Shown in pieces: positions 68 through 62,402 of a stretch of 64,000 bases of DNA; within the stretch, counting starts at the first letter, position 1, and every line of letters starts with the position of its first letter. The stretch covers positions 53,553 to 117,552 of the forward strand of contig JAFRLY010000046.1 of NCBI GenBank assembly GCA_017431005.1, given 5' to 3'. The DNA is from Clostridia bacterium (lineage in GTDB: Bacteria; Bacillota; Clostridia; Christensenellales; Aristaeellaceae). The notes beneath the pieces were generated by a model. The model worked only from the letters and a program-made list of their open reading frames with translations. It ran no database searches and was not told where the DNA came from. The translations under genes and the position numbers were made by a program.

Positions 68-1618
68 TCACGCCTCTTCCCGGATCAAATAAGGAATGTC
101 CGAAAGCGTCGTATTCACCGTGATAGTCCGCCCACCTTCATAAGCCGTTCCGTTCCAGGCTTTCCAGCGTCCCTTCGGCAACTGTACAGTTTTGGTGACA
201 GCTCCTTTCTCTGTGACCGGCGCCGCCAGTAACCCACTGCCCAGCATAAACTGTCCTGCAGCCTGCTCCATCCCCTCCTCCGGGAACTCGTAGGCCATGG
301 GGCGTACGATGGGCTCACCGGTTTCCATGGCATGCTTCGCCAGGCGGAAGATCAGATCACCCAGCCGCGTATGCAGCCGCATGGCTTTCCGGACCAGCGC
401 TGCGTTCTTCGGGCTCAGTACCCGCCAGGGCGCAGCCGACACCTGCATCATCCCCATCAGCGCACTGGCCTGGGCCCAACGGACAAACAGCTCCTCATCC
501 AGTTCCTTCCGGCCGGCAAAGCTGCCGATTTCTCCCCCGCCGACCATGTCCGGGCATCCGTAGGCATAGCCCAGCAGCCCCTGCAGAACCGTGTTGGGAA
601 TCAGCGTATTGATGCCAAAGGTATCCCAGCTGTGTTTCTTATCCTGCAGGCGCGTTACTACAGGCCGCCCTCCGTATTTCCAGGCTGCCCGGAATTCATT
701 CAGCGGATAGCTTTCCCCAATCCGGTTGTACAGGCTCGTCTGCTCCCTGGCTGCGACCCGCCGGAAGGTCAGATCGTCATCCCGGTAGAAATAGCAGTCC
801 CCGGCGTCAAACTTGAAGCCGTCGATCCCGTAATCCCGCATCAGACCGTCCAGCTGCTCATGGTACCAGGCGGCAGCCTCCGGATTGGTCAGGTCCAGCA
901 CAGCGCTGAACCCGTTCCACCATTCCCGGCAGGCCGGAACGCCTGAGGCATCCCGGATCAGCCACCCGCTGCGTTTCAGCTGCAGGAATCGGTCTCCGGC
1001 GCAGGAAACCACAGGGGTCACCCACAGCATGACCAGGAAGCCCATTTCATGCAGCCGGGAGATCAGTGCCGCCGGGTCCGGAATCCTGCGGGTGTTGAAA
1101 GTGAAGCTTCCGTAATCCTCCGCCCAGCCCTCGTCAATCATCAGGATTCCGGGCTGCAGCCTGTTTTCCAGCACATCCCGGGCATAGCGCAGAATGTTTT
1201 CAGTCGTCTGCTCTTTTCCCAGCTCAATCCATGTATTGTACTGCGGTCGGTCAAAAAAGCGGCGGTCCGGAACCTGCTTTACGAATGGAAAATGCGTACG
1301 CATCGCGGCCAGATAGGCTCCCTTCAGGCTGCTGAAGCCTTTCTCCGGCAGGATGGCTGCTTCCCCCTCGCACCGGATGCTCCCGTTCTCCATCCTGAGC
1401 GTAAAGGCCTTCTCACTCCAGATATACCGCCCGCAGGAGGAAAGGAAAAGCGGCGCGTACTGATCCCCTTCCCGTTCTCCCCGCAGATCCAGAAAAATAC
1501 AGCTGTCCCGGTGAAAAGGCATTTCATACCCGTGATTCACGGCCCCGCCCCACCAGAATTCATTCTCCAGTATGCCCAGCGTCAGATTACACATATTCCC
1601 ACATCTGGTCCTCTTCAT
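68..1618 (-). CDS. GH31-family alpha-glycosidase
   Basis: This 516-residue protein is a retaining alpha-glycosidase of the GH31 type. The barrel carries the family nucleophile motif GFKFDAGD near residue 270, preceded by the MIDEGWAEDYGSF strand and the MLWVTPVVS strand. A late PDMVGGGEIGSF segment sits where the acid/base aspartate region of GH31 usually lies. It is shorter than most GH31 enzymes (650-800 residues) because the N-terminal sandwich is reduced. No signal peptide is seen, so it is probably cytosolic and acts on imported oligosaccharides. It has its own promoter and lies downstream of the terminator that closes the GH3/esterase operon. The start is uncertain: the ribosome binding site is weak, and an ATG eight codons in is possible. 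The linkage cleaved (glucose, xylose or galactose) cannot be read from sequence alone. Confidence 0.82.
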   Translation of the reverse strand: MKRTRCGNMCNLTLGILENEFWWGGAVNHGYEMPFHRDSCIFLDLRGEREGDQYAPLFLSSCGRYIWSEKAFTLRMENGSIRCEGEAAILPEKGFSSLKGAYLAAMRTHFPFVKQVPDRRFFDRPQYNTWIELGKEQTTENILRYARDVLENRLQPGILMIDEGWAEDYGSFTFNTRRIPDPAALISRLHEMGFLVMLWVTPVVSCAGDRFLQLKRSGWLIRDASGVPACREWWNGFSAVLDLTNPEAAAWYHEQLDGLMRDYGIDGFKFDAGDCYFYRDDDLTFRRVAAREQTSLYNRIGESYPLNEFRAAWKYGGRPVVTRLQDKKHSWDTFGINTLIPNTVLQGLLGYAYGCPDMVGGGEIGSFAGRKELDEELFVRWAQASALMGMMQVSAAPWRVLSPKNAALVRKAMRLHTRLGDLIFRLAKHAMETGEPIVRPMAYEFPEEGMEQAAGQFMLGSGLLAAPVTEKGAVTKTVQLPKGRWKAWNGTAYEGGRTITVNTTLSDIPYLIREEA

Positions 1619-1674
1619 TTCTTCAGAGCCATATTCCTCTGTAAAACAAGATATCCATGCGCAGAATTTCTAAA

Positions 1675-1704
1675 ATTATGTCATTTTTTGATGTCTTTTG
1701 TCAA
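1675..1704 (-). promoter_or_regulatory. Sigma-70-type promoter of the GH31 gene
   Basis: On the minus strand TTGACA (1704-1699) is followed after 18 bases by CATAAT (1680-1675), about 57 bases before the GH31 start. This gives the GH31 gene transcription independent of the operon upstream. Confidence 0.7.
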
Positions 1705-1750
1705 GTTTAATATGTGTTGGTTCATATATACTCACTGACTTTTTCCAAAA

Positions 1751-1776
1751 GAAAAAAAGAGGAGTCCGTAGACTCC
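1751..1776 (-). terminator. Terminator of the sugar-import/GH operon
   Basis: On the minus strand the stem GGAGTC-TACG-GACTCC (1776-1761) is followed by TC and a run of seven T. It lies 19 bases after the esterase stop and closes the operon that begins at the ABC ATPase. Confidence 0.75.
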
Positions 1777-1794
1777 CCCTCATTATGAAGCCTG

Positions 1795-2805
1795 TCAGCC
1801 TGACGGTGTATTCGCAATCGTCTGCAGGCGTTTTTCTATTTCCTTCATGGTTTCCTCGTCCGTTCCCCGGAACCGCAGACCCGTGCGCAGTGTGATGACT
1901 TCCATGGCGGCAGCCGGCATGCCGGGTCTGTTGGGATCTGCAGGCAGGATTTCAGCCAACAGTTTCTTCCCTTCCGGGTGCTCCATCAGATATTTGAACG
2001 TGCAGTCAAGGTTCAGCGTCTTTTCTTTGTTGCCGTTGATCCTCGGACCGAAACGCGGCGGGGTCAGTCCGTCCGCGTCGATACCGCCCAGCACATCGCC
2101 CAGCCAGGCCAGGCTGTCCTCCACCCAGTTCGCGTAGCGGCTGCTGAAATCCGGCCGGTTGACGCTGAGATCCCCGGTGGTCAGGCCGTGGGCGCCGTTG
2201 CTGTAGATATGGCTTTCAAAGGCGATGCCCTTCGCGCAAAGGGCGTCGATCATATGCACAGCGTTCTTCACCGGCACCAGGTTGTCGGTCCGCGTGGCGA
2301 AAACAAAGCATGGGCAGGTATCCGCGTCCACGGCGGAAGGCACATCCGGCGCGGAAGGCAGATAATCGTTCACGCACTCCTTATCGATGACCGGGTAACC
2401 CAGAATCGCAGCATTGGGGCGATTCTTCGACATCGTCGCAGCGCAGGCCGCCAGATGGCCGCCGGCGGAGAAGCCGATGACCGCAATCCGGTCGGGCACA
2501 ACGTGCCAGGCCTCCGCGTTCTGCCGGATCAGCGCCATGGCCTGCTCATAGTCCTCCAGGGGCCGGGGCCATTCCGCCAGTTCCCCGAGGGAATAACGCA
2601 GAATGAATGCATGGTAGCCCGCCTTCAGATAAGGCATGGCTACAGGATCCGCCTCCCGGTCGGAGCAGAAATGATAGCCGCCGCCGGGAATGACGATCAC
2701 GGCGGGCCGGGCGGCGATGCCGCCGAACTCCCCGCCCGTCTGCAGCAGGTACGATGTCAGGGTAACGTTTCTTTCCTCATTGAGCACCATGAATTCCGCT
2801 TTCAT
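1795..2805 (-). CDS. Alpha/beta hydrolase, BD-FAE/acetyl-xylan-esterase-like
   Basis: This 336-residue serine esterase probably removes acetyl or aromatic esters from oligosaccharides handled by the neighbouring glycosidases. The oxyanion-hole motif PGGGY lies at residues 40-44 and the nucleophile elbow GFSAGG puts the catalytic serine at 113. The aspartate is probably in ATRTDNLVP and the histidine in NGAHGL, as in the BD-FAE/Aes-like family. About 80 residues beyond the hydrolase fold form an unassigned C-terminal extension. There is no signal peptide, so it should be cytosolic. GGAG lies 7 bases before the ATG. It is the last gene of the GH operon, 15 bases after the GH3 gene. The ester substrate is inferred from context only. 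Confidence 0.8.
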   Translation of the reverse strand: MKAEFMVLNEERNVTLTSYLLQTGGEFGGIAARPAVIVIPGGGYHFCSDREADPVAMPYLKAGYHAFILRYSLGELAEWPRPLEDYEQAMALIRQNAEAWHVVPDRIAVIGFSAGGHLAACAATMSKNRPNAAILGYPVIDKECVNDYLPSAPDVPSAVDADTCPCFVFATRTDNLVPVKNAVHMIDALCAKGIAFESHIYSNGAHGLTTGDLSVNRPDFSSRYANWVEDSLAWLGDVLGGIDADGLTPPRFGPRINGNKEKTLNLDCTFKYLMEHPEGKKLLAEILPADPNRPGMPAAAMEVITLRTGLRFRGTDEETMKEIEKRLQTIANTPSG

Positions 2806-2820
2806 AGCATCGCTCCTTCC

Positions 2821-4569
2821 TTACAGCCGGGTATCCCAGCGGCCGCAGAACACCGTGTCGTCCGCCTTGCCCCGGAAGCCGCTCTTTCCGGTAATCTTCT
2901 CCACCGCCGCCCGCACGTTTTCCCGGTTGGGGCCGTAGGCGTTGATGAAGGTATGGATGTTGGCACAGTCCACCAGATGATTTGTATAATTCAGGCTGAC
3001 GCCCACCGTGGGCACCTCCTCCGTATACCAGGGCATCTCCATGCTGTGGCCGCTGCTCCAGGCCATACGCTCCACGTTGCGCTGGGCATAGCCCTTGACA
3101 TAGATAAACACGAACACCACGTCGTATTTCTTTTTGAAATCCTCCCGGCGGCCCATCTGCATCATCTTGACGAAGTTCATCGGATGGGGGCCGTTCTCCA
3201 CCTCCAGATCGTAAAAGCTGGGACACTGGGTCACCGTGAAGCCAGCCCGCTCCAGCTCCTCCGTGATCAGGGCGCGCATGCCGTCGCCCTGATACGCCTT
3301 GCTGTTCGGCGTGCTCTGCACGTAGATGAGCAGGGCGTTTTTCCGTTGAGCCGGATCGATCGGCAGCAGCTGCCTCGGATCCTTCACCAGGGTGACGCCG
3401 GCATCCGCGGCCTGCGCGGTGAAAGCCCGGTGCTCCGGGCAGCCGATCACGTCCAGGCCGGCTTTGTCCGGATACCGCACCGCGTCGTCGTACAGCTTCA
3501 GTTTTGCCTTCAGCCCGAGAATCCGCAGCAGTGCGTCCCGCAGCCGTTCCTCCGTCACGATGCCGCGCTCATAACCGGCCTTCAGGTAGCTCAGATCCTC
3601 TTCAAAATCATTGGCAAACAGGAACATGTCACAGCCGGCGGCAATACACCGGGGTACAGCTTCGCTGCGCGCCATCACACCGGACATGCCGATCATGTGG
3701 GAGGCGTCGGATATGATCAGACCGTTGAAGCCCATCTGTCCCCGCAGCAGATCCTGCAGCAGTTCCGGTGCCAGGGACGCGGGCATAATTTCGGTATCCT
3801 TCAGGCCGGGCCGCAGCTTCCGGCTCATCTTCGGCAGGGAGATCTGGCCGGTCATGACTGCCTCCAGCCCCTCTTCAATCATGGTCCGGTAAACCCTGCC
3901 GTAGCTTGCCAGCCACTCCTCAGGCTCTGCCTCGTTGTGGGCCGGGGAAATATGCGGGTCCAGCTCGTCCCAGCCGTCTCCGGGAAAATGCTTGCAGGTG
4001 CATGCCATATGCGGCGCCGCGTCATGAATGCCCCGGATGTAGGCACGCACGCATTCGGCAACCCGATCAGGGTCGCTGCCGAAGGAACGGGTATTCACAA
4101 TCGTGTTGCGCCAGTTTTTATACACATCCGCCACCGGATTGAACATCCAGTTGACGCCGATGGCCGCCGCTTCCCTGCCGGCGGCATAACCGATATGATA
4201 GGCGGTCTCCGTTCCCTTCGCTGCGCCGGCCTCCGCGGCTGTGGCCACAAAGGTACCCTCCTTCGGCAGCACGCCGTTTCCGCCGTCGTCGCAATTGCCG
4301 GCGATAAATACCGGCACGCGGCTGTACTGCTGGAACAGCCGGTTCTGCAGCCAGACAGTGTCCTTGTCTCCGCCCTGCCAGCGCATGCCGCCGGGGCGGG
4401 CGGTTTCCATCAGGGACTGAATCTGCTGCTCATCCGCGCCCGGCACTGCCTTGAGCAGCACGAACAGCTGGCTCAGCTTCTCCTCGAGGGTCATGGACGC
4501 CAGAATCTCCTCCACCCAGCAGATTTCCCTGTCCGTCAGTTCAAACGGTTTGGCTTTCAGATCCACCAT
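2821..4569 (-). CDS. GH3 enzyme, NagZ-like clade (copy A)
   Basis: This 582-residue protein has the two-domain GH3 layout: a barrel followed by a C-terminal alpha/beta domain starting near residue 350. The motif KHFPGDG followed by LDPH keeps the Asp-x-His dyad that NagZ-type GH3 enzymes use as acid/base. IISDAS carries the nucleophile aspartate. Plain beta-glucosidases of GH3 use a C-terminal glutamate instead, so the clade is that of beta-N-acetylglucosaminidases and of GH3 phosphorylases. It has no signal peptide. The gene follows the phosphomutase gene by 13 bases and is paralogous to the GH3 gene on its other side. GAGGAG precedes the ATG by 9 bases. Whether it hydrolyses or phosphorolyses its substrate is open. 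Confidence 0.85.
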   Translation of the reverse strand: MVDLKAKPFELTDREICWVEEILASMTLEEKLSQLFVLLKAVPGADEQQIQSLMETARPGGMRWQGGDKDTVWLQNRLFQQYSRVPVFIAGNCDDGGNGVLPKEGTFVATAAEAGAAKGTETAYHIGYAAGREAAAIGVNWMFNPVADVYKNWRNTIVNTRSFGSDPDRVAECVRAYIRGIHDAAPHMACTCKHFPGDGWDELDPHISPAHNEAEPEEWLASYGRVYRTMIEEGLEAVMTGQISLPKMSRKLRPGLKDTEIMPASLAPELLQDLLRGQMGFNGLIISDASHMIGMSGVMARSEAVPRCIAAGCDMFLFANDFEEDLSYLKAGYERGIVTEERLRDALLRILGLKAKLKLYDDAVRYPDKAGLDVIGCPEHRAFTAQAADAGVTLVKDPRQLLPIDPAQRKNALLIYVQSTPNSKAYQGDGMRALITEELERAGFTVTQCPSFYDLEVENGPHPMNFVKMMQMGRREDFKKKYDVVFVFIYVKGYAQRNVERMAWSSGHSMEMPWYTEEVPTVGVSLNYTNHLVDCANIHTFINAYGPNRENVRAAVEKITGKSGFRGKADDTVFCGRWDTRL

Positions 4570-43764: not shown

Positions 43765-44655
43765 ATGAAGAAACTGTTACTGATTATCAATCCCAACGCC
43801 GGAATAAAGCTGGGCCGCAGATATCTTCCGGAAATGATCTCAGAATTTTCCCGTGCGGACTATCTTGTTTCCGTATATGTAACCGAGCAGCGGGGGGACG
43901 CGGTAGTTTTTGCCCGGGAGCACGGCAGCGAATTCGATCTTGTGACAGCGTGCGGCGGTGATGGTTCGCTGAACGAGGTGATCACCGGACTGATTCAGGG
44001 CGGTCATTCCCCGCTTATGGGCTATATCCCCTGCGGCAGCACCAACGACTTCGCCGCCGGTCTGAACATCCCCTCAGATCCGCTGCAGGCCTGCAGAGCC
44101 ATTACGGAGGGCTCACCTCGGACCCTGGATGTAGGTTGTTTCGGAGGTGACCGTTATTTCAGCTATACAGCATCCTTCGGTGCCTTCACCGCGGTCAGCT
44201 ACTCCACACCTCAGAATGTCAAAAATGTACTGGGCCATGCAGCTTACATCCTGGAAGGTATACGCTCTCTGGCGGATATCCGCCCGATCCGCCTTCGTGG
44301 AACCGCTGACGGCATCCCGTTTGAAGGCGACTACATTTTCGGCACTGTCTGCAACTCCACATCCCTGGGCGGTGTTCTGAAACTCGAGGACAGCCAGGTG
44401 CATTTGAATGACGGTCTTTTTGAATCCCTGCTGATTCCCTTCCCTTCCGACCTGATTGCCCTGAATCAGATTCTGACCGCGCTGCGCACCCGTGCTTATG
44501 AGGATCCGCACCTGATCTTCCTCCGGGCCTCCGAATTCATCTTCCAGGCCCTGGAAGATCTCTCCTGGACTCTGGACGGCGAAGAAGCAAAAGGAAAACC
44601 CATCACCGTAATCAGGAACCTGCACAGTGCTGTTTCCCTGATGGTGATGGGCTGA
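43765..44655 (+). CDS. Diacylglycerol-kinase-like lipid kinase (DagK/YegS family)
   Basis: This 296-residue cytosolic or membrane-associated kinase phosphorylates a lipid, probably diacylglycerol, with ATP. It starts KKLLLIINPNAGIKLGRR, and it has the catalytic GGDGSLNEVITGL and PCGSTNDFAAGL motifs of the DAGK family. The C-terminal region has the usual LNDGLFE motif. The ATG at 43765 has AAAGGAAG upstream and lies clear of the promoter. The gene diverges from xpt and converges with the exopolysaccharide cluster, from which it differs in base composition. Confidence 0.93.
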   Translation: MKKLLLIINPNAGIKLGRRYLPEMISEFSRADYLVSVYVTEQRGDAVVFAREHGSEFDLVTACGGDGSLNEVITGLIQGGHSPLMGYIPCGSTNDFAAGLNIPSDPLQACRAITEGSPRTLDVGCFGGDRYFSYTASFGAFTAVSYSTPQNVKNVLGHAAYILEGIRSLADIRPIRLRGTADGIPFEGDYIFGTVCNSTSLGGVLKLEDSQVHLNDGLFESLLIPFPSDLIALNQILTALRTRAYEDPHLIFLRASEFIFQALEDLSWTLDGEEAKGKPITVIRNLHSAVSLMVMG

Positions 44656-44677
44656 TTATTTAAACATCAGGTCCTGT

Positions 44678-45631
44678 TTACATGTATTCCTGCAGCGTCT
44701 CTGCGACCCTTTGCATATCATCCTTTGTATATCGCTGATCACATGGGAGCGGCAGAATGTTTTCCGCCAGATCCTCTTCCACATCCAACCCTGTCCCCAG
44801 TACATTCGGCCAAAGAGTGGCCACATAGATTCTCCTTTTCGCCAGCTGCTTCTTGACACTCATTCCCTTCTTCATATAGAAGGGGTATGCGTAAGGCCCG
44901 GGCGGACATGGCCTCCTGATAGGATTCCTGTCTCCCAGCAGCTCAGCTAAAGTATGAAAGTTTTCCTCTCTCCGAAGCTTCACCGCTTCATAATCAATCG
45001 CGCCGAGAATATTGTGCGTCAGTCTGGACATCTGCCGCAGGCTGATTTCTTTGAACGATTCATCGTTATTGATAAAATCCTCATAGTAATCGGAAGCACA
45101 TTTTCCTTCATACCTTCCGAGAATATGCTTCATCCGGTTCATTGAGATATCAATGGGGAGTTGCTCCTGTAAGATAGTATTAGTGGAAAGATAGCCACCA
45201 TCCGGGACTCCGAAGAATTTCCGACAGGAATATAAGGTATCAATACCAGAAACAGGTCTGATGAAAAAAGCCTGGGAATTGTCAACAACAATATTCCCGT
45301 ATATGCGTCGGAACTCTTCCTGTTGCTCTGTGCTGATAAAACCATAATAATTTACAATATACACAACTTCATCCGGATTGATTTTTCTATCCAGAAGCGG
45401 AAGAAAAGACTGATTGACCCGATATTCCTCAAAAGGTATTTGTTCACGTAAAAGCATCAGTCTGACAGAATCGCACAGAAAATACGGAAGATATACCTTC
45501 TGATAATGCTTTGCCTTCACAAGATACAGTAGCGCGCATCTAGCATTATTGACTGCGATAAGATCCGAATAATACTCATTCGCAACCAGCGCCTCCAGGC
45601 CAAAGTATCCGCCGATTTCTTTTTCATTCAT
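44678..45631 (-). CDS. PLP-dependent aminotransferase-like protein (DegT-related)
   Basis: This 317-residue protein looks like a divergent DegT/DnrJ/EryC1-fold enzyme. IVVDNSQAFF carries the aspartate that would contact the PLP ring, and YSCRKFFGVPDGGYLST holds the candidate PLP-binding lysine. The conserved fold-type I opening LIAVNNARCALLYL is also visible. It is shorter than the canonical sister at 50325-51443 and lacks its typical N-terminal TxGP and GEGG signatures. The ATG at 45631 has AGGAAAGAG upstream. It is the last gene of the exopolysaccharide cluster. A sugar aminotransferase or a non-catalytic relative are both possible. Confidence 0.62.
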   Translation of the reverse strand: MNEKEIGGYFGLEALVANEYYSDLIAVNNARCALLYLVKAKHYQKVYLPYFLCDSVRLMLLREQIPFEEYRVNQSFLPLLDRKINPDEVVYIVNYYGFISTEQQEEFRRIYGNIVVDNSQAFFIRPVSGIDTLYSCRKFFGVPDGGYLSTNTILQEQLPIDISMNRMKHILGRYEGKCASDYYEDFINNDESFKEISLRQMSRLTHNILGAIDYEAVKLRREENFHTLAELLGDRNPIRRPCPPGPYAYPFYMKKGMSVKKQLAKRRIYVATLWPNVLGTGLDVEEDLAENILPLPCDQRYTKDDMQRVAETLQEYM

Positions 45632-45784
45632 TGCTCTTTCCTGCTTAAAATACATTTGCTTTATCTGCTGTTATCTTTTTCTTTTTTACTTATCCGGGTT
45701 TATAATGCACAAAAAAGCCACAATTAAAATGAAAGCTCCAGCATCCTTGTTTTCACTGTAAACCGATTCTGCTTATTTACAACT

Positions 45785-46852
45785 TCAATCCTTACATGAT
45801 TCCAATGGCTTTCGTGTCGAGAAAATTGGCATAATATCCATTTCCCCGTTATAGTATTTTTTTAATTCGTTCTTTAGTATGTTCGTTTCAGGGAGCAGAT
45901 AATCCACATAATTGAGATAATGTACCAAATATCTATTGTTTTTCAGGCAATCCGGCAACCACCCGCCGACTACGGGGTACGCGATTGAATACTTATTTCT
46001 TTTTTTCAAAATGCTGATGACTGGCAGAATGATTTTTATGCCTTTTTGATTAGGCAGAATCAATACAGGATCACATGTTTTAGCAATTCTGAACATGTTA
46101 ATTAACAGCTTCACTTTTTCTTTTTTCCAGTTTGAAGTGTCTGCGATGCTTATCTGTCCTTTTCCATGTTCTTTTTCCAATTCTTTATATATGCCTATTG
46201 TTTTGCTTACCTGTCCTCCAATCATCGGAGAATCCGACGAATACCCGAAAGAGCCAATAATTCCGATGCTTTTGTGTTTTGATGTAAGCCCCTGCTGCTT
46301 TCTGTTCCCACAGATCCAGGATAGCAGGTTTTTCATGGCATTTTGTGGTTCAAACGCGTGACTGTATTGAACAGTTTTTTTCTTCATTGTTTTTATTAAT
46401 TCTTCATTATTAACTGCATTAATAATCAAACCAGTCATTTCCTCAACATTATGCACATGAAATAAAAAACCGGTTTCACCCGTTTTGATCAGTTCTGTGT
46501 TAAAGCGCCAATCTGATGCGATCACAGGCAATCCGGCCATAAAGCCTTCACAAATTGTTGTTGGAAATCCTTCACCAGGATAGTAAGTCGGAAATAAAAG
46601 CATATAATATTCTGAAAGTAATTCGAGTCCATCATTCTGGCTTAAGATTCCTCTGTAACATACATATTGATTATTTTTATTGAAAAGTTCTTGATAATGA
46701 TCTTCGAACTCGCTTTCAATCGGTCCCCAAATATCCAGGCAGCAGTGAGCACCTTTTTCATTGGCTGATATGATTGCTTTAACGGCTTCATCTATCCCTT
46801 TTTCCGGTGTTACACGGGAAAATGTACAAAATCTTTTTTCACTTCCAATCAT
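45785..46852 (-). CDS. Glycosyltransferase family 4 with reversed domain order
   Basis: This 355-residue protein carries two halves of a GT-B glycosyltransferase in the wrong order. Residues 1 to about 183 are a C-terminal domain: FCTFSRVTPEKGIDEA is the usual strand just after the linker, LDIWGPIE and LLFPTYYPGEGFPTT follow, and the E-x7-E sugar-nucleotide motif uses Glu94 and Glu102. Residues about 195-355 are an N-terminal domain: SIGIIGSFGYSSDSPMIGGQ, then YPVVGGWLPDCL, ending where the linker would begin. Both halves resemble the same GT4 subfamily. The ATG at 46852 has GAGGAG 9 bases upstream, overlapping the end of the GH39-like gene, so expression looks intended. It is either a circular permutant or a relic of a tandem duplication. 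Confidence 0.75.
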   Translation of the reverse strand: MIGSEKRFCTFSRVTPEKGIDEAVKAIISANEKGAHCCLDIWGPIESEFEDHYQELFNKNNQYVCYRGILSQNDGLELLSEYYMLLFPTYYPGEGFPTTICEGFMAGLPVIASDWRFNTELIKTGETGFLFHVHNVEEMTGLIINAVNNEELIKTMKKKTVQYSHAFEPQNAMKNLLSWICGNRKQQGLTSKHKSIGIIGSFGYSSDSPMIGGQVSKTIGIYKELEKEHGKGQISIADTSNWKKEKVKLLINMFRIAKTCDPVLILPNQKGIKIILPVISILKKRNKYSIAYPVVGGWLPDCLKNNRYLVHYLNYVDYLLPETNILKNELKKYYNGEMDIMPIFSTRKPLESCKD

Positions 46853-46858
46853 GTTCAC

Positions 46859-48295
46859 CTACTCCTCGATCATTAATCTGATATACAGCCATTCACCGTT
46901 TTTTATTTCCAGTGCAAGCTGTCCATCCACTGTTTCCGAAGCAACCACAGTTTTCTCAGGATTCTTTTTATCCATACTGATTTGTTCCACATTGGAGTAT
47001 CCAGAATGTATATTAATTTTTAAACTAACAATTTCTTTCCCGATGTTGGAAATCAGTATGCCCTGCTCTTTATCTCCATCGGCAGCACAAACATAGACAC
47101 CTTGTCCAATCAGGTCACTCTCTGATGTCATCCGTACCTGCTTTCCCAATTCCACCAGTTTAGAAAAGGCATAAAAGGCATTATAACCAGGAAGAAGCTT
47201 CCCTTTATTATCATACAATCCGCACCAGGCGGCATATTCTCCGGTCAGCGACCCGTCATAATACATTGCACCATCAACCGGATCATTCTGCATCGTTATC
47301 AGGCTGGCTGCATAAAAGGAAGCTATGGAAGGCTGACGGATCGCTTCCCAGATTGCTTCGATATCATTCCAGTTTTCTACATAATTCCATTCATCCAGAT
47401 AAGTTTTTGTTGCGCTGTATCCATTTTTGTTCAACACATTGCGGACAAGGTTGGCCCGGAAAGTAAACTTTTTAGGATCATCTGTGTAAAGATGCCATCC
47501 CAGGAAATCCAGAGGCGTGTCCTTTCCGTCTGCTCTGATTCCTTCAAGCATTGCCTGCAGGTTTTCTTCATTCACCGATGCTTCAGTACAGATACCAATA
47601 AATATGTCCGGGAACTGCTTCTTCAATCTGCGTGCTGTTACCCTGTACAATTCATAATACTCTTCAATTGTTCCCTTCCATTGACGGTCCTGATCAGGTT
47701 CATTCCAGATTTGCCAGTACCGTATATTATAAAAAAAGCCACTGTTCCAGCCTTCATTATAATGAGCCACAATATGGGCGCATACTTCAGCCCATTTCGT
47801 ATAATCTTCCGGAGGTTGCTGATGTGGATTATCAGCTCCCGGAACACCGATAGATTCACCAAGCCGGTAATAAACCTGCGCACCTGCATCCAGGATGTTT
47901 TTTATATATATGTCTGTTTCTGTAAATCGATATGCTTTAGCATCTTCCGGATCCCGTGTCATATCCGGAAAAATACAATGTACATCAATAAAGGCGTTAC
48001 TTCCATCCGGATACTCAGTATCATGAGTCCTTACGAATGGGATCCGGCATTGACGATAATACTCTGTGGCATCAAGTATCCATTCCAAACCGTCTTCCGC
48101 AATAACAGCATGAGATTTAGGCCCATTATTGATACCATTCACCGGTTTCATTTTCCCGATAACATCCGAAAAATCAATGTTAACCATCTGAAAACTTTTC
48201 TCTGTGTTTTCCTCCTTTCCAGAGCAACCGGCCAGCAATAGAATAATTACCAGTATACCCAACTGCTCGAATACTGTTTTTACTTTTTTATTCAA
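46859..48295 (-). CDS. GH39-like lipoprotein glycosidase
   Basis: This 478-residue protein has a lipoprotein signal (ILVIILLLAGC, Cys24), so it is anchored outside the cell membrane. The barrel shows IRYWQIWNEPD with candidate acid/base Glu199 and KTYLDEWNY with candidate nucleophile Glu302, spaced as in clan GH-A family 39. A C-terminal sandwich follows from about residue 385. A GH39 hydrolase (PslG) also sits in the Psl exopolysaccharide cluster of Pseudomonas, so trimming or release of the cluster's own polymer is a reasonable guess. It overlaps the WbqC gene by 8 bases. Confidence 0.78.
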   Translation of the reverse strand: MNKKVKTVFEQLGILVIILLLAGCSGKEENTEKSFQMVNIDFSDVIGKMKPVNGINNGPKSHAVIAEDGLEWILDATEYYRQCRIPFVRTHDTEYPDGSNAFIDVHCIFPDMTRDPEDAKAYRFTETDIYIKNILDAGAQVYYRLGESIGVPGADNPHQQPPEDYTKWAEVCAHIVAHYNEGWNSGFFYNIRYWQIWNEPDQDRQWKGTIEEYYELYRVTARRLKKQFPDIFIGICTEASVNEENLQAMLEGIRADGKDTPLDFLGWHLYTDDPKKFTFRANLVRNVLNKNGYSATKTYLDEWNYVENWNDIEAIWEAIRQPSIASFYAASLITMQNDPVDGAMYYDGSLTGEYAAWCGLYDNKGKLLPGYNAFYAFSKLVELGKQVRMTSESDLIGQGVYVCAADGDKEQGILISNIGKEIVSLKINIHSGYSNVEQISMDKKNPEKTVVASETVDGQLALEIKNGEWLYIRLMIEE

Positions 48296-48989
48296 GAGTA
48301 TACCTCCCCAGCAATTCCTTTATTTCATCCAGGCTATTATACATAAGAACATCTAGGATGGAAAGATCCGGCAAAAACTCACCGTCTCCCTGAGGATAGA
48401 CAATATTTGAATCCATGTGCAAAAATGATAATTTTATTCCATTTTGCTCGAATGTATTTTTATCGTACAGTTCTTTTCCACCAATTGCATTGGTATATTC
48501 ATCGCATCCTCGTTCATGACAGATATCAATAATTCTTTGCTGCGCTCGGTGAGCATGATCCAACTGCATCTCCGTTGCTGAATAAATTGGAGTTTTAATA
48601 CCCAAATAATCAGCTGTCTTCCGGTTACAGTTTGCAAGAAAACCAGCAAGATTATCATCTTCAAACCACATAATCTCCGTAAACAGTGACATAACGTCCG
48701 AATAATAAGGCGCCTTTTTATATGCAAACTCGATTTTGTGAATCAGATTGGTTTTATCCTCTTTACTCATACTTATAGTATGCTCATTGATCAGACGATT
48801 CTGACTGGCTTTATGAATACTGAGTCCGAACAGCGCAGGCTCTCCGTTGATTTTGATCCGGTTACGATTGATCCATCCACCTTTTATATAATTTACATCA
48901 TCATAAATTATATACTCATCCGAGAGGTTCATCAATTGCCAGTATCCCAGATACGGAAAGAAATAGGGTTGCATCATTCCAAGTCTCAT
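48288..48989 (-). CDS. WbqC-family protein
   Basis: This 233-residue protein matches the WbqC family by its opening MMQPYFFPYLGYWQLM, by EYIIYDDVNYIKGGWINRN and by the pattern that follows. The family occurs in O-antigen and capsule clusters, usually next to sugar aminotransferases; its reaction is not established. It overlaps the ATP-grasp gene by 4 bases (ATGA) and the GH39-like gene by 8. With the ATP-grasp protein and the aminotransferase it may build or attach an unusual amino or amide group. Confidence 0.88.
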   Translation of the reverse strand: MRLGMMQPYFFPYLGYWQLMNLSDEYIIYDDVNYIKGGWINRNRIKINGEPALFGLSIHKASQNRLINEHTISMSKEDKTNLIHKIEFAYKKAPYYSDVMSLFTEIMWFEDDNLAGFLANCNRKTADYLGIKTPIYSATEMQLDHAHRAQQRIIDICHERGCDEYTNAIGGKELYDKNTFEQNGIKLSFLHMDSNIVYPQGDGEFLPDLSILDVLMYNSLDEIKELLGRYTLE

Positions 48990-54463: not shown

Positions 54464-55501
54464 TCATATGCATAATTTTTCGAACTGCTCAAAGCTATAC
54501 TCTTTGATCGTTTTCTCAATTTCAGCTTCTTCAGTTGCCTGCGCATGCATTTCCGGGTATAATTTGTTCAATCGAACAGCCATCACAGTAAAAGCAGCTT
54601 CCTGAATTATTCTTTCCATTCCCTTCAGGCGAACATGGTTCAGCCGAGTCTGTCGAAGTAGGTATCTGTAATAAAGGTCATCTGTATCTAAGCCTAGTTC
54701 TCTTCGATCCTCCATAAGGCGCAACGTAACCCACAACGAATCCAGGCTCTTGGAGCTGAATTCTGCCTTCTGTGTAATTGAATTTGGGTTCATCCTTCTC
54801 AGATAAACAACATCACGAATTCCAAAAATTGTCCTCGCTTGCGGGAAAACTACCTGGTGCATCAGGCTGTCTTCAAACCAATATCCTTCAGGAAACTGTA
54901 TCCTGTCAAATAGTTCCCTGCGGTAAATCTTGGTACACGCATGGCCAGTCAGATCATCCAACCAGGAATGAATAATGCCTTCAGCCTGAGAGTGTTTTCT
55001 TCGTAGCAAGGGAATACCTCTGAAATTGCAATAGCTCCCCGCCACAATATCCGCATGTTCCTTATCACACCTAGACACCAGAGATTCAACTGCGTTTTCT
55101 CCCAGAAGATCATCCGAATCAAGAAACAGGATATATTTTGATTGTGAATAAAGCAAACCGGTATTTCTGGCTCCGGATAATCCTCTATTATCCTGATGAA
55201 TAATAAGAGCGTTCTCTCGGTTCCGATATCGATCTATTAATTCACCGGTATGATCTTTTGAGCCGTCATCCACAAGAATCACACGGAATGGAAACTTTGT
55301 CTTCTGCCTAAAAACTGATTGTGCACAGCGAACAATATATTTTTCAGCATTATATGCGGGAATAATAATATCCACAAAGAAACTGTCATCTGGATTGGGA
55401 AGCGATTGTTTCCGAATGCAGGATTCGCCCTTGTCTTCATGTTTTTTCTGAAGCTTAGCTATACTCTGCCAATACTGATCATCCGATGGCTTTAAACCCA
55501 T
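54464..55501 (-). CDS. GT2-family glycosyltransferase (copy B)
   Basis: This 345-residue GT-A enzyme has a lead of about 40 residues before the catalytic start VDIIIPAYNAEKYIVRCAQS. VILVDDGSKDHTGELID and NRGLSGARNTGL follow, with the DxD motif in YILFLDSDDLL. The C-terminal half contains the GHACTKIYRRELFD segment common to capsule GT2 enzymes. Its start lies 23 bases inside the end of the polymerase gene, with AGGAAGGAG before the ATG. Donor sugar is not deducible. Confidence 0.9.
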   Translation of the reverse strand: MGLKPSDDQYWQSIAKLQKKHEDKGESCIRKQSLPNPDDSFFVDIIIPAYNAEKYIVRCAQSVFRQKTKFPFRVILVDDGSKDHTGELIDRYRNRENALIIHQDNRGLSGARNTGLLYSQSKYILFLDSDDLLGENAVESLVSRCDKEHADIVAGSYCNFRGIPLLRRKHSQAEGIIHSWLDDLTGHACTKIYRRELFDRIQFPEGYWFEDSLMHQVVFPQARTIFGIRDVVYLRRMNPNSITQKAEFSSKSLDSLWVTLRLMEDRRELGLDTDDLYYRYLLRQTRLNHVRLKGMERIIQEAAFTVMAVRLNKLYPEMHAQATEEAEIEKTIKEYSFEQFEKLCI

Positions 55502-60811: not shown

Positions 60812-62353
60812 TTAGAATGTGTCGTAGTTTGAACCTTCTGTTATCCCTTTTTTATTATTTATTATAGTATCCCCACTGCGAAACAGCGTATTTGTCAGTG
60901 TCATGGTAAAGCCTCCGCTGTTATTGATGTACAGCCGCTCCAGCGTGTGGTTTCCAGACCGGGTAAATATACAGTCTGTAAAAGTGGTACCGCTTAGTTT
61001 TACATTTCCACCCCAATCAACATAGGTACATCCTTCGCTTACAAGAGGAAAACTGCAGCGTGTTTGGCATAAGTTCAGCATCAGTGTAAATGTACAATTG
61101 TACGCCTGAGGCAGAACCTCAGTGTTCCAGTAGCTGAAAGCATAGGAATGATTGAATACTGAATCAATCAGTGTCATACTCCCTGCTTCCACCCGGGCAA
61201 TATACTGGTCTCTGCGTTGTTCATTAAAGGAACAACCACGAATTGTGACCTCGGCAGCACTCGCCGAAACAACAAGATTTGCATTGATCGTACATCCACT
61301 TACTGTTAGCTCCGGTATAATATCTCCCGCCTTTGGTGTGCCATAAATCTGAAATGCAGCCCCTGATGCACTGTTCATTGTTTCCACAGTGCAATTGCTC
61401 ACTCTTAGGTATTTGCATCCGTAGCGTTCCATATATATGCAATGATCACCGCTGTATAAATCGCCGTCATTTTTGAATCTGCAGTAATCTACAGTTGTTT
61501 TTTCACAATAGCCTTGAACAGGACTTTTGCACTCTTCAAAAGTGCAGCCCCTGACTGTTATACTTTGAGGAATCACAGTGGAGCGACTGGATTTTCTGCC
61601 TCTTATTCCTGTAAGAGCATTCGTGAAATAGCAATTTGTAAAGCTTCCATATTGGTTCCAGATTTCCACAAAAATAATATTACTGGTTCTCGTATATATT
61701 TCCCCATGTGGACTTCTGCCAGTTCCCTGTTTTGTACTCCGGAACGCAATATTCTCAAAAGATACACCACCTTCAAAAGAAAGTACATGATCTGAATAAT
61801 CCGGATCACAAATGATTGAAGCACCGGGCCCAGCATTAACAGGATAAGCAAAAAACACCTTTGAGATCTTGGTTGTGATATATGATCGGATTAGATAAGT
61901 GCCACTCAACAGGACATTGGTTTCTCTGCTGTTTAAACATTTCTGAAAGGCAGCTGAATCATCCGTAATACCATCGCCTTTTGCTCCGAATTCTTCCGGA
62001 GTAATATAGGAGGTAAAGCCGGGTTCTGCAGATCCATATCCTATCAGAGAAGTATCTTCCTCAAAAGCATCCTCCGCTATTTCCGTCAGTGCTGAAGAAA
62101 AATAAGCTCTTTTTAAAGAACTGCCAGCAAACGCTTTGGGACCAATATACTTAACATTCTTGGGAATGATAACTGTTTCTACACTAGTAGTATTTCTGAA
62201 AGCTTCTTCTTCTATTATTACCGTTTCTTCCGGCAGTTTCAGAACATTTTCAGCTGATCCCGAACCCGGATCATAAAAAACACAAAGAAAAAGGAAAAAG
62301 CATACATGTCGTAACCATGATCTTTTTTCGTAGCAAGCTGACCATATACTCAT
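60812..62353 (-). CDS. LRR_5/beta-helix exported protein (pectate-lyase-3-like)
   Basis: This 513-residue protein starts with a hydrophobic export signal (HVCFFLFLCVFYDPGSGS). About 75 residues of BspA-type leucine-rich repeats follow (VETVIIPKNVKYIGPKAF). Then comes a right-handed beta-helix opening with FGAKGDGITDDSAAFQKCL, the mark of pectate_lyase_3/GH28-like and tailspike-like proteins. Many coils end in CTF, CSF or CTI. Such helices bind, cut or epimerise polysaccharides. The ATG at 62353 is preferred to 62359 because AGGGGG then lies 6 bases upstream. It sits between wecC and the chain-length gene. Catalytic residues cannot be assigned. Confidence 0.78.
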   Translation of the reverse strand: MSIWSACYEKRSWLRHVCFFLFLCVFYDPGSGSAENVLKLPEETVIIEEEAFRNTTSVETVIIPKNVKYIGPKAFAGSSLKRAYFSSALTEIAEDAFEEDTSLIGYGSAEPGFTSYITPEEFGAKGDGITDDSAAFQKCLNSRETNVLLSGTYLIRSYITTKISKVFFAYPVNAGPGASIICDPDYSDHVLSFEGGVSFENIAFRSTKQGTGRSPHGEIYTRTSNIIFVEIWNQYGSFTNCYFTNALTGIRGRKSSRSTVIPQSITVRGCTFEECKSPVQGYCEKTTVDYCRFKNDGDLYSGDHCIYMERYGCKYLRVSNCTVETMNSASGAAFQIYGTPKAGDIIPELTVSGCTINANLVVSASAAEVTIRGCSFNEQRRDQYIARVEAGSMTLIDSVFNHSYAFSYWNTEVLPQAYNCTFTLMLNLCQTRCSFPLVSEGCTYVDWGGNVKLSGTTFTDCIFTRSGNHTLERLYINNSGGFTMTLTNTLFRSGDTIINNKKGITEGSNYDTF

Positions 62354-62402
62354 CTGCATCCCCCTGAAAAGAACACATTCCCCTGTGTCACCATTGTCGA
62401 AT

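Follow-up and report, generated by a model that had tools for sequence, protein, structure and literature searches.

The two domains of ordinary GT4 glycosyltransferases are tied together by two pieces of chain: the linker between them, and a C-terminal helix that crosses from the C-domain to the N-domain. Published accounts describe this crossing for three solved enzymes: the C-terminal helix of WsaF crosses onto the N-domain, the last helix of WaaB joins the N-domain (residues 162-180 forming the loop between the domains; PMC10556518), and the last helix of DGD2 crosses over to the N-domain (PMC12022483). To this extent they agree with the premise on which a preliminary description of the gene considered here was built, namely that the C-terminal helix of a GT4 packs on the N-domain. 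WsaF, WaaB, TarM and Gtf1 share with our gene an Arg..Lys pair, an E-x7-E motif and a donor domain built on the same motifs; unlike it, they carry the donor domain last.

The gene lies within a stretch of 64,000 nucleotides from a Clostridia bacterium, referred to below as the window, and its features are collected in Table 1. That the assembly encodes the reversed (C–N) domain order is certain. The reading that we favour, with a probability of roughly 0.6, is that the gene encodes a real and working circularly permuted retaining GT4 of GT-B fold. The frame lies on the minus strand, which the preliminary description leaves unstated; it is free of stops across 355 codons and gives a protein of 355 aa from ATG 46852, or 357 aa from GTG 46858; the ATG is the likelier start because just 3 nt separate the GTG from the GAGGAG.

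Table 1. The candidate permuted glycosyltransferase gene, its parts and its neighbours (positions are those of the window)
Feature	Position	Strand	Remarks
Candidate circularly permuted GT4 gene	45785..46852	minus	one open frame; ATG 46852 (GTG 46858), stop 45785
C-terminal (donor-binding) GT4 domain, first in chain	46313..46852	minus	residues 1-180; Pfam and alignments
Joint of old chain ends	46268..46312	minus	residues 181-195, CGNRKQQGLTSKHKS; no stop, no in-frame start codon
N-terminal (acceptor-side) GT4 domain, last in chain	45788..46267	minus	residues 196-355; ends in linker, STRKP-LESCKD
Shine-Dalgarno-like GAGGAG	46862..46867	minus	9 nt 5' of ATG; inside last codons of upstream GH39-like gene
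Upstream GH39-like gene	46859..48295	minus	apparently natural end
Downstream gene, 325 aa	44678..45655	minus	no Pfam or NCBIfam match at limits used

Public profiles recognise the first half of the protein. Pfam places Glycos_transf_1 (PF00534) on residues 5-160 (2.2e-21) and reported no match on the remainder; all 15 of the PDB sequences matched (E <= 0.01) – an undecaprenyl-linked GalNAc-transferase, Gtf1 and TarM among them – align with the first half only. A profile built from the ordinary homologues finds TarM and Gtf1, the matches covering the last part of the N-domain together with the C-domain. Because Pfam sees the first half only, a C–N gene would pass in annotation as a truncated GT4. 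The second half came to light with a pair of half-HMMs trained on 12 proteins of ordinary order, the window protein being left out: numbered from the GTG, the C-half model matches residues 8-184 (3.6e-77) and the N-half model follows at 193-356 (2.1e-61) in the same frame. The reversal of domain order is far beyond what chance would give. The alignments show the catalytic motifs of the C-half to be kept (R13, K18, E94 and E102, numbered from the ATG), and GGQ is present in the N-half. Much of the preliminary description is thereby borne out, including the C-then-N order, E-x7-E at Glu94/Glu102, the GGQ, the good ribosome binding site at the start of the C-domain (GAGGAG, 9 nt before the ATG) and the membership of both halves in one subfamily.

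Both halves match the same ordinary-order proteins, which rules out an origin of the halves in unrelated families. Two separate proteins are also unlikely, since no stop stands between the halves and, of the in-frame starts listed, the two closest to the joint, at codons 175 and 212 counted from the GTG, both fall inside domains. The chain thus holds a donor domain with the Arg/Lys pair and E-x7-E and, by the half-HMM, an N-terminal Rossmann domain of the same family; the order is C-domain, helix, N-domain and not N-domain, linker, C-domain, crossing helix. The protein is derived from a GT4 and may work like one, yet it is no standard member of the family. Its first part aligns to the last part of its homologues and its last part to their first, with the old termini joined at residues 181-195 and the new termini in the interdomain linker.

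The cut can be placed by comparison with homologues. In five close homologues of ordinary order (L071-L075), exactly 15 residues separate the P of STRxP from the [FY]C that opens the C-domain (5/5). The window protein stops 6 residues past the P of the conserved STRKP and starts 7 residues before FC if read from the ATG, or 9 if read from the GTG; the linker is thus divided 6 + 7 or 6 + 9, as compared to 15 in the five homologues, and both new ends fall inside it; the preliminary description had the frame stop where the linker would begin. At the joint the C-half, ..SWICGNRKQQG, continues into LTSKHKSIGIIG.., while the aligned homologues end ..WIDSVR or ..WIRKYNV and begin MPKHKIGLVG or MSKKIGLVG. 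The partition of the linker, taken together with the alignment across the joint, therefore indicates that little or nothing has been lost or duplicated. Repeats at the break points comprise just short two-copy pairs (14-27 nt at 70-86%). The narrower proposition, that this is a working permutant cut so cleanly within the linker that its two tails sum to the ancestral linker (exactly 15 residues with the GTG), we regard as evenly balanced.

To look for the reversed order more widely, both half-HMMs were run on all open frames of 60 codons or more from 119 loci and from the window. The 119 loci contain 52 N–C frames, 1 C–N frame, 52 frames with a C-half only and 0 with an N-half only (an earlier pass over 116 loci had given 50, 1, 50 and 0, respectively). 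Removal of two truncated copies (L010 and L013) reduces the N–C frames to 50, a figure that includes the 12 training proteins and some near-identical entries (L080, L083 and L084), so that 50 of the 51 distinct genes with both halves are N–C and the sole C–N frame is the window gene (L001). In 6 of 6 records searched the N-half match likewise precedes that of the C-half. The C-only frames are GT4s or similar proteins whose N-domain lies beyond these HMMs; permutants of other GT4 subfamilies would escape the survey because the HMMs do not recognise their N-domains. The search for homologues of the same order, using each half and the intact protein, that the preliminary description had proposed thus returned none, and within the loci scanned C–N order is limited to the window gene. 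The C–N order is derived from an ordinary N–C gene, since N–C is the order in L071-L075 and in every other homologue that has both halves.

Genome tallies used the permuted protein as query; the draws overlap, and the window's own genome is counted among the matches in each, except in the tally of relatives of L072's genome, where L072's own genome is counted. Matches were obtained in 7 of 200 relatives and 10 of 215 genomes of the family (E <= 1e-10), in 11 of 396 genomes from the order and 41 of 391 from the class (E <= 1e-8), and in 5 of 398 genomes of the phylum and 5 of 148 relatives of L072's genome (E <= 1e-15). Within the genus one other genome matched (2.7e-10), with the C-half only and inside a frame of 1295 aa. 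Among the matches listed, the window gene alone covers the whole query, the next longest running from residue 7 to 253 in G695 across six stops. A single-protein scan of named genomes with the window protein found nothing, while a two-row alignment scan of these genomes found 21 relatives, four of which (L072-L075) stand at 55-57% over the C-half; a scan of viral contigs added L071 at 56%. Plasmids gave 21 records, in none of which a single location covers 80% of the query, and the best 20 of the 21 match the C-half only; phages gave a single record, again C-half only, and a 44-base pattern spanning the joint had no match in viral contigs.

The five close homologues are 48-52% identical to the window protein over the N-half and 52-54% over the C-half. 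They belong to the same subfamily in both halves and have the same motifs, but have N–C order and the 15-residue linker. Their contig titles name an uncultured Ruminococcus, Traorella, Ruminococcus, Lachnospiraceae and one IMG/VR contig, sources which we take to be bacteria of gut or rumen type. Trees of each half group the window protein with these five, its place among them being weakly supported (15-35 for the N-half and 68-79 for the C-half). One of the five, L071 (2476-3552), the closest homologue among viral contigs, is of ordinary order with a frame apparently broken near the start of the N-domain; it is flanked by what is presumably a UDP-galactopyranose mutase gene and by transposase-like frames.

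The two halves have fared differently since their divergence from these homologues. Of the positions invariant in four close homologues the window protein keeps 0.92 in the C-half (homologues 0.87-0.97) and 0.81 in the N-half (homologues 0.85-0.94); its terminal branch is 0.66 in the C tree, against 0.38-0.57 for the homologues, and 0.68 in the N tree, against 0.21-0.31. Of the 43 alignment columns whose conservation across 21 family members reaches 85% or more, it keeps 33. Among the 10 at which it differs, 5 show the residue that all five close homologues have and 1 the residue of four of the five, 3 are variable among the close homologues, and 1 departs from all five: an Asn of the N-half, kept in 5/5 close homologues and 18/21 others, has become Lys. 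In addition, an Arg common to the five close homologues is Ile. Should the enzyme work, the faster change of the N-half would be an adjustment to its altered topology or to a different acceptor.

The faster N-half, the lost Asn and Arg, and the single instance weigh against a real, working permutant, as does the lack of a remnant of duplication. The first three also favour a different account, in which the gene is the scar of a recent recombination – the outer halves of a tandem pair having been deleted, or the gene otherwise rearranged – and is open by chance while encoding no working enzyme; half-deleted tandem copies, which do occur in the family, favour it too. Set against this account are the position of both new ends within a linker of some 15 residues, the joint in frame, the Shine-Dalgarno and ATG at the domain boundary, and a C-half that evolves at an ordinary rate. 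Moreover, in a neutral simulation the chance that no stop arises falls from 0.36 after 20 substitutions to 0.15 after 40, 0.057 after 60 and 0.0095 after 100. The open frame therefore suggests that most of the window branch was under selection, and the low chances after 60 and 100 substitutions mean that a scar fits recent death only. A recently dead gene is possible, the branch data leaving the permutation itself undated; as an explanation of the locus we consider a scar unlikely. A real, working permutant accords with the kept motifs, the start signal, the clean cut in the linker, the ordinary conservation of the C-half, and the setting in a polysaccharide cluster.

That cluster is AT-rich, and the gene, at 37.0% GC in a window of 53.4%, sits near its end. 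Among the cluster genes are a flippase, Wzz, two GT2s, an ordinary GT4, a heparinase-like gene, WbqC, DegT, an ATP-grasp and a UDP-sugar dehydrogenase, together with a Wzy_C match that lies below its cut-off. In this company the enzyme would probably add one sugar in the assembly of an exopolysaccharide repeat unit. A homologue of the downstream gene in G062 adjoins an ATP-grasp protein, as does the downstream gene itself. Promoter-like sites number 4, as against 4.4 expected, and terminator-like sites 0, as against 0.7. The idea that a broken upstream neighbour might have supplied the start was rejected, because the alignment of the GH39-like gene with three homologues extends as far as its end. 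Three further features of the region may be recorded. The two GT2 frames share 83 bases when each is taken from its first start codon (54464-54546, minus strand); a frame at 60812-62359 (minus strand), inside the cluster, combines a BspA-type leucine-rich repeat match with a pectate-lyase-like match; and just past the stop of the window gene (45700-45830, minus strand) lies a protein-like, out-of-frame peptide of 28 residues that matched nothing when compared with Pfam, NCBIfam, the PDB and plasmids, and which may be fortuitous or the end of a gene since lost.

Two routes to the permutation may be considered. Tandem duplication (N1-C1-N2-C2) followed by loss of N1 and C2 would leave C1-N2; alternatively, one copy may have been cut and rejoined. 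The duplication route is plausible because the wider family contains ordinary tandem pairs, in L004 (48% identical), L003 (44%) and L117, as well as one second copy that has lost its N-half. In the latter (L111, in G1393) an ordinary GT4 gene (2034-3110, minus strand) precedes a frame of 204 aa (1498-2109, minus strand) that holds a C-half only. This frame begins where the C-half of the first copy ends and is 49% identical to that C-half and 61% to L015; it is a tandem second copy minus its N-half, and so the kind of loss needed does occur in the family. Both the pairs and the half-lost copy are seen in more distant family members only. Around the window gene (44001-48400) there is no remnant of the outer halves, the next best frame standing at E = 3.3, so that the tandem origin inferred in the preliminary description finds its parallels in the family and no trace in the window. 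An ordinary copy at the corresponding locus of relatives was looked for in four stretches, three of them around homologues of the GH39-like gene and the fourth around one of the downstream gene; none contains a match to either half at 1e-4. The exact partition of the linker would also be explained if one copy had been cut once and rejoined. An insertion splitting an ordinary gene and leaving its missing halves elsewhere was rejected, there being no second match in the own genome (E <= 0.01) and no leftover in 44001-48400.

The genome is metagenome-like, and it might be supposed that the true gene is ordinary, or that two copies were misjoined in assembly. The assembly is 85% complete in 63 contigs, and neither the scan of named genomes nor the joint search in viral contigs yielded a second copy of the order, both of which lend the supposition some weight. 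Conversion of N–C to C–N by error would nonetheless take misjoining at three points, ahead of C, at the boundary of C and N and behind N, that leaves the frame unbroken and the start signal in place, whereas a collapsed tandem repeat would by the same reasoning give N–C and not C–N; the own genome has no other copy to cause the error, and the gene lies far inside a contig of 117.6 kb. An assembly error thus seems very improbable.

If the gene is real and working, its first half would fold as the nucleotide-sugar domain and its second as the acceptor domain, the two meeting, we infer, in one cleft. With the linker cut, the crossing helix and the new joint of about 15 residues would be the only tie between the domains. 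A working enzyme might also be pictured as a domain-swapped dimer whose clefts form between two chains, one giving the donor half and the other the acceptor half, a picture favoured by the shortness of the joint (some 15 residues from last helix to first strand) and by the cutting of the usual linker. Yet in WsaF, WaaB and DGD2, as far as the available accounts go, the C-terminal helix is already in place on the N-domain, so that a single chain may need no longer joint than this; we judge the swapped dimer improbable. In a permutant closed within one chain, the opening and closing of the GT-B fold that its catalysis requires would run on one tie instead of two, because only the crossing helix and the short joint hold the domains together.

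The donor domain is last in every both-half gene that we found except the window gene. A natural C–N enzyme with ordinary homologues of about 50% identity would make a matched pair with which to ask whether the linker is needed for domain closing, and by what steps tandem genes in bacteria give rise to circular permutants. If real and active, the enzyme would be a natural test of the tolerance of the GT-B fold to a rewired chain.

Among the titles and abstract openings listed from the open full-text literature we found no natural permutant of a GT-B enzyme, a result that is provisional for the literature as a whole. Papers that join 'permuted' and 'GT-B' proved, in the text available, to concern GH70 or the lipocone fold. 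Another paper from the same literature dealt with a Tubby-like fold. Natural circular permutants explained by duplication include, in the available part of one account, saposin and swaposin and the DNA methyltransferases (PMC3320104): these have undergone the same kind of change as the window gene, with the same proposed genetic route. The examples seen in that account concern no glycosyltransferase, whereas the window gene reverses the order of whole domains in a two-domain GT-B enzyme. The GH70 glucansucrases, reported to be permuted relative to GH13 (PMC11046441), resemble the window gene in being carbohydrate-active and defined by circular permutation; they differ in having a barrel fold rather than GT-B, and in being an established family as against one gene.
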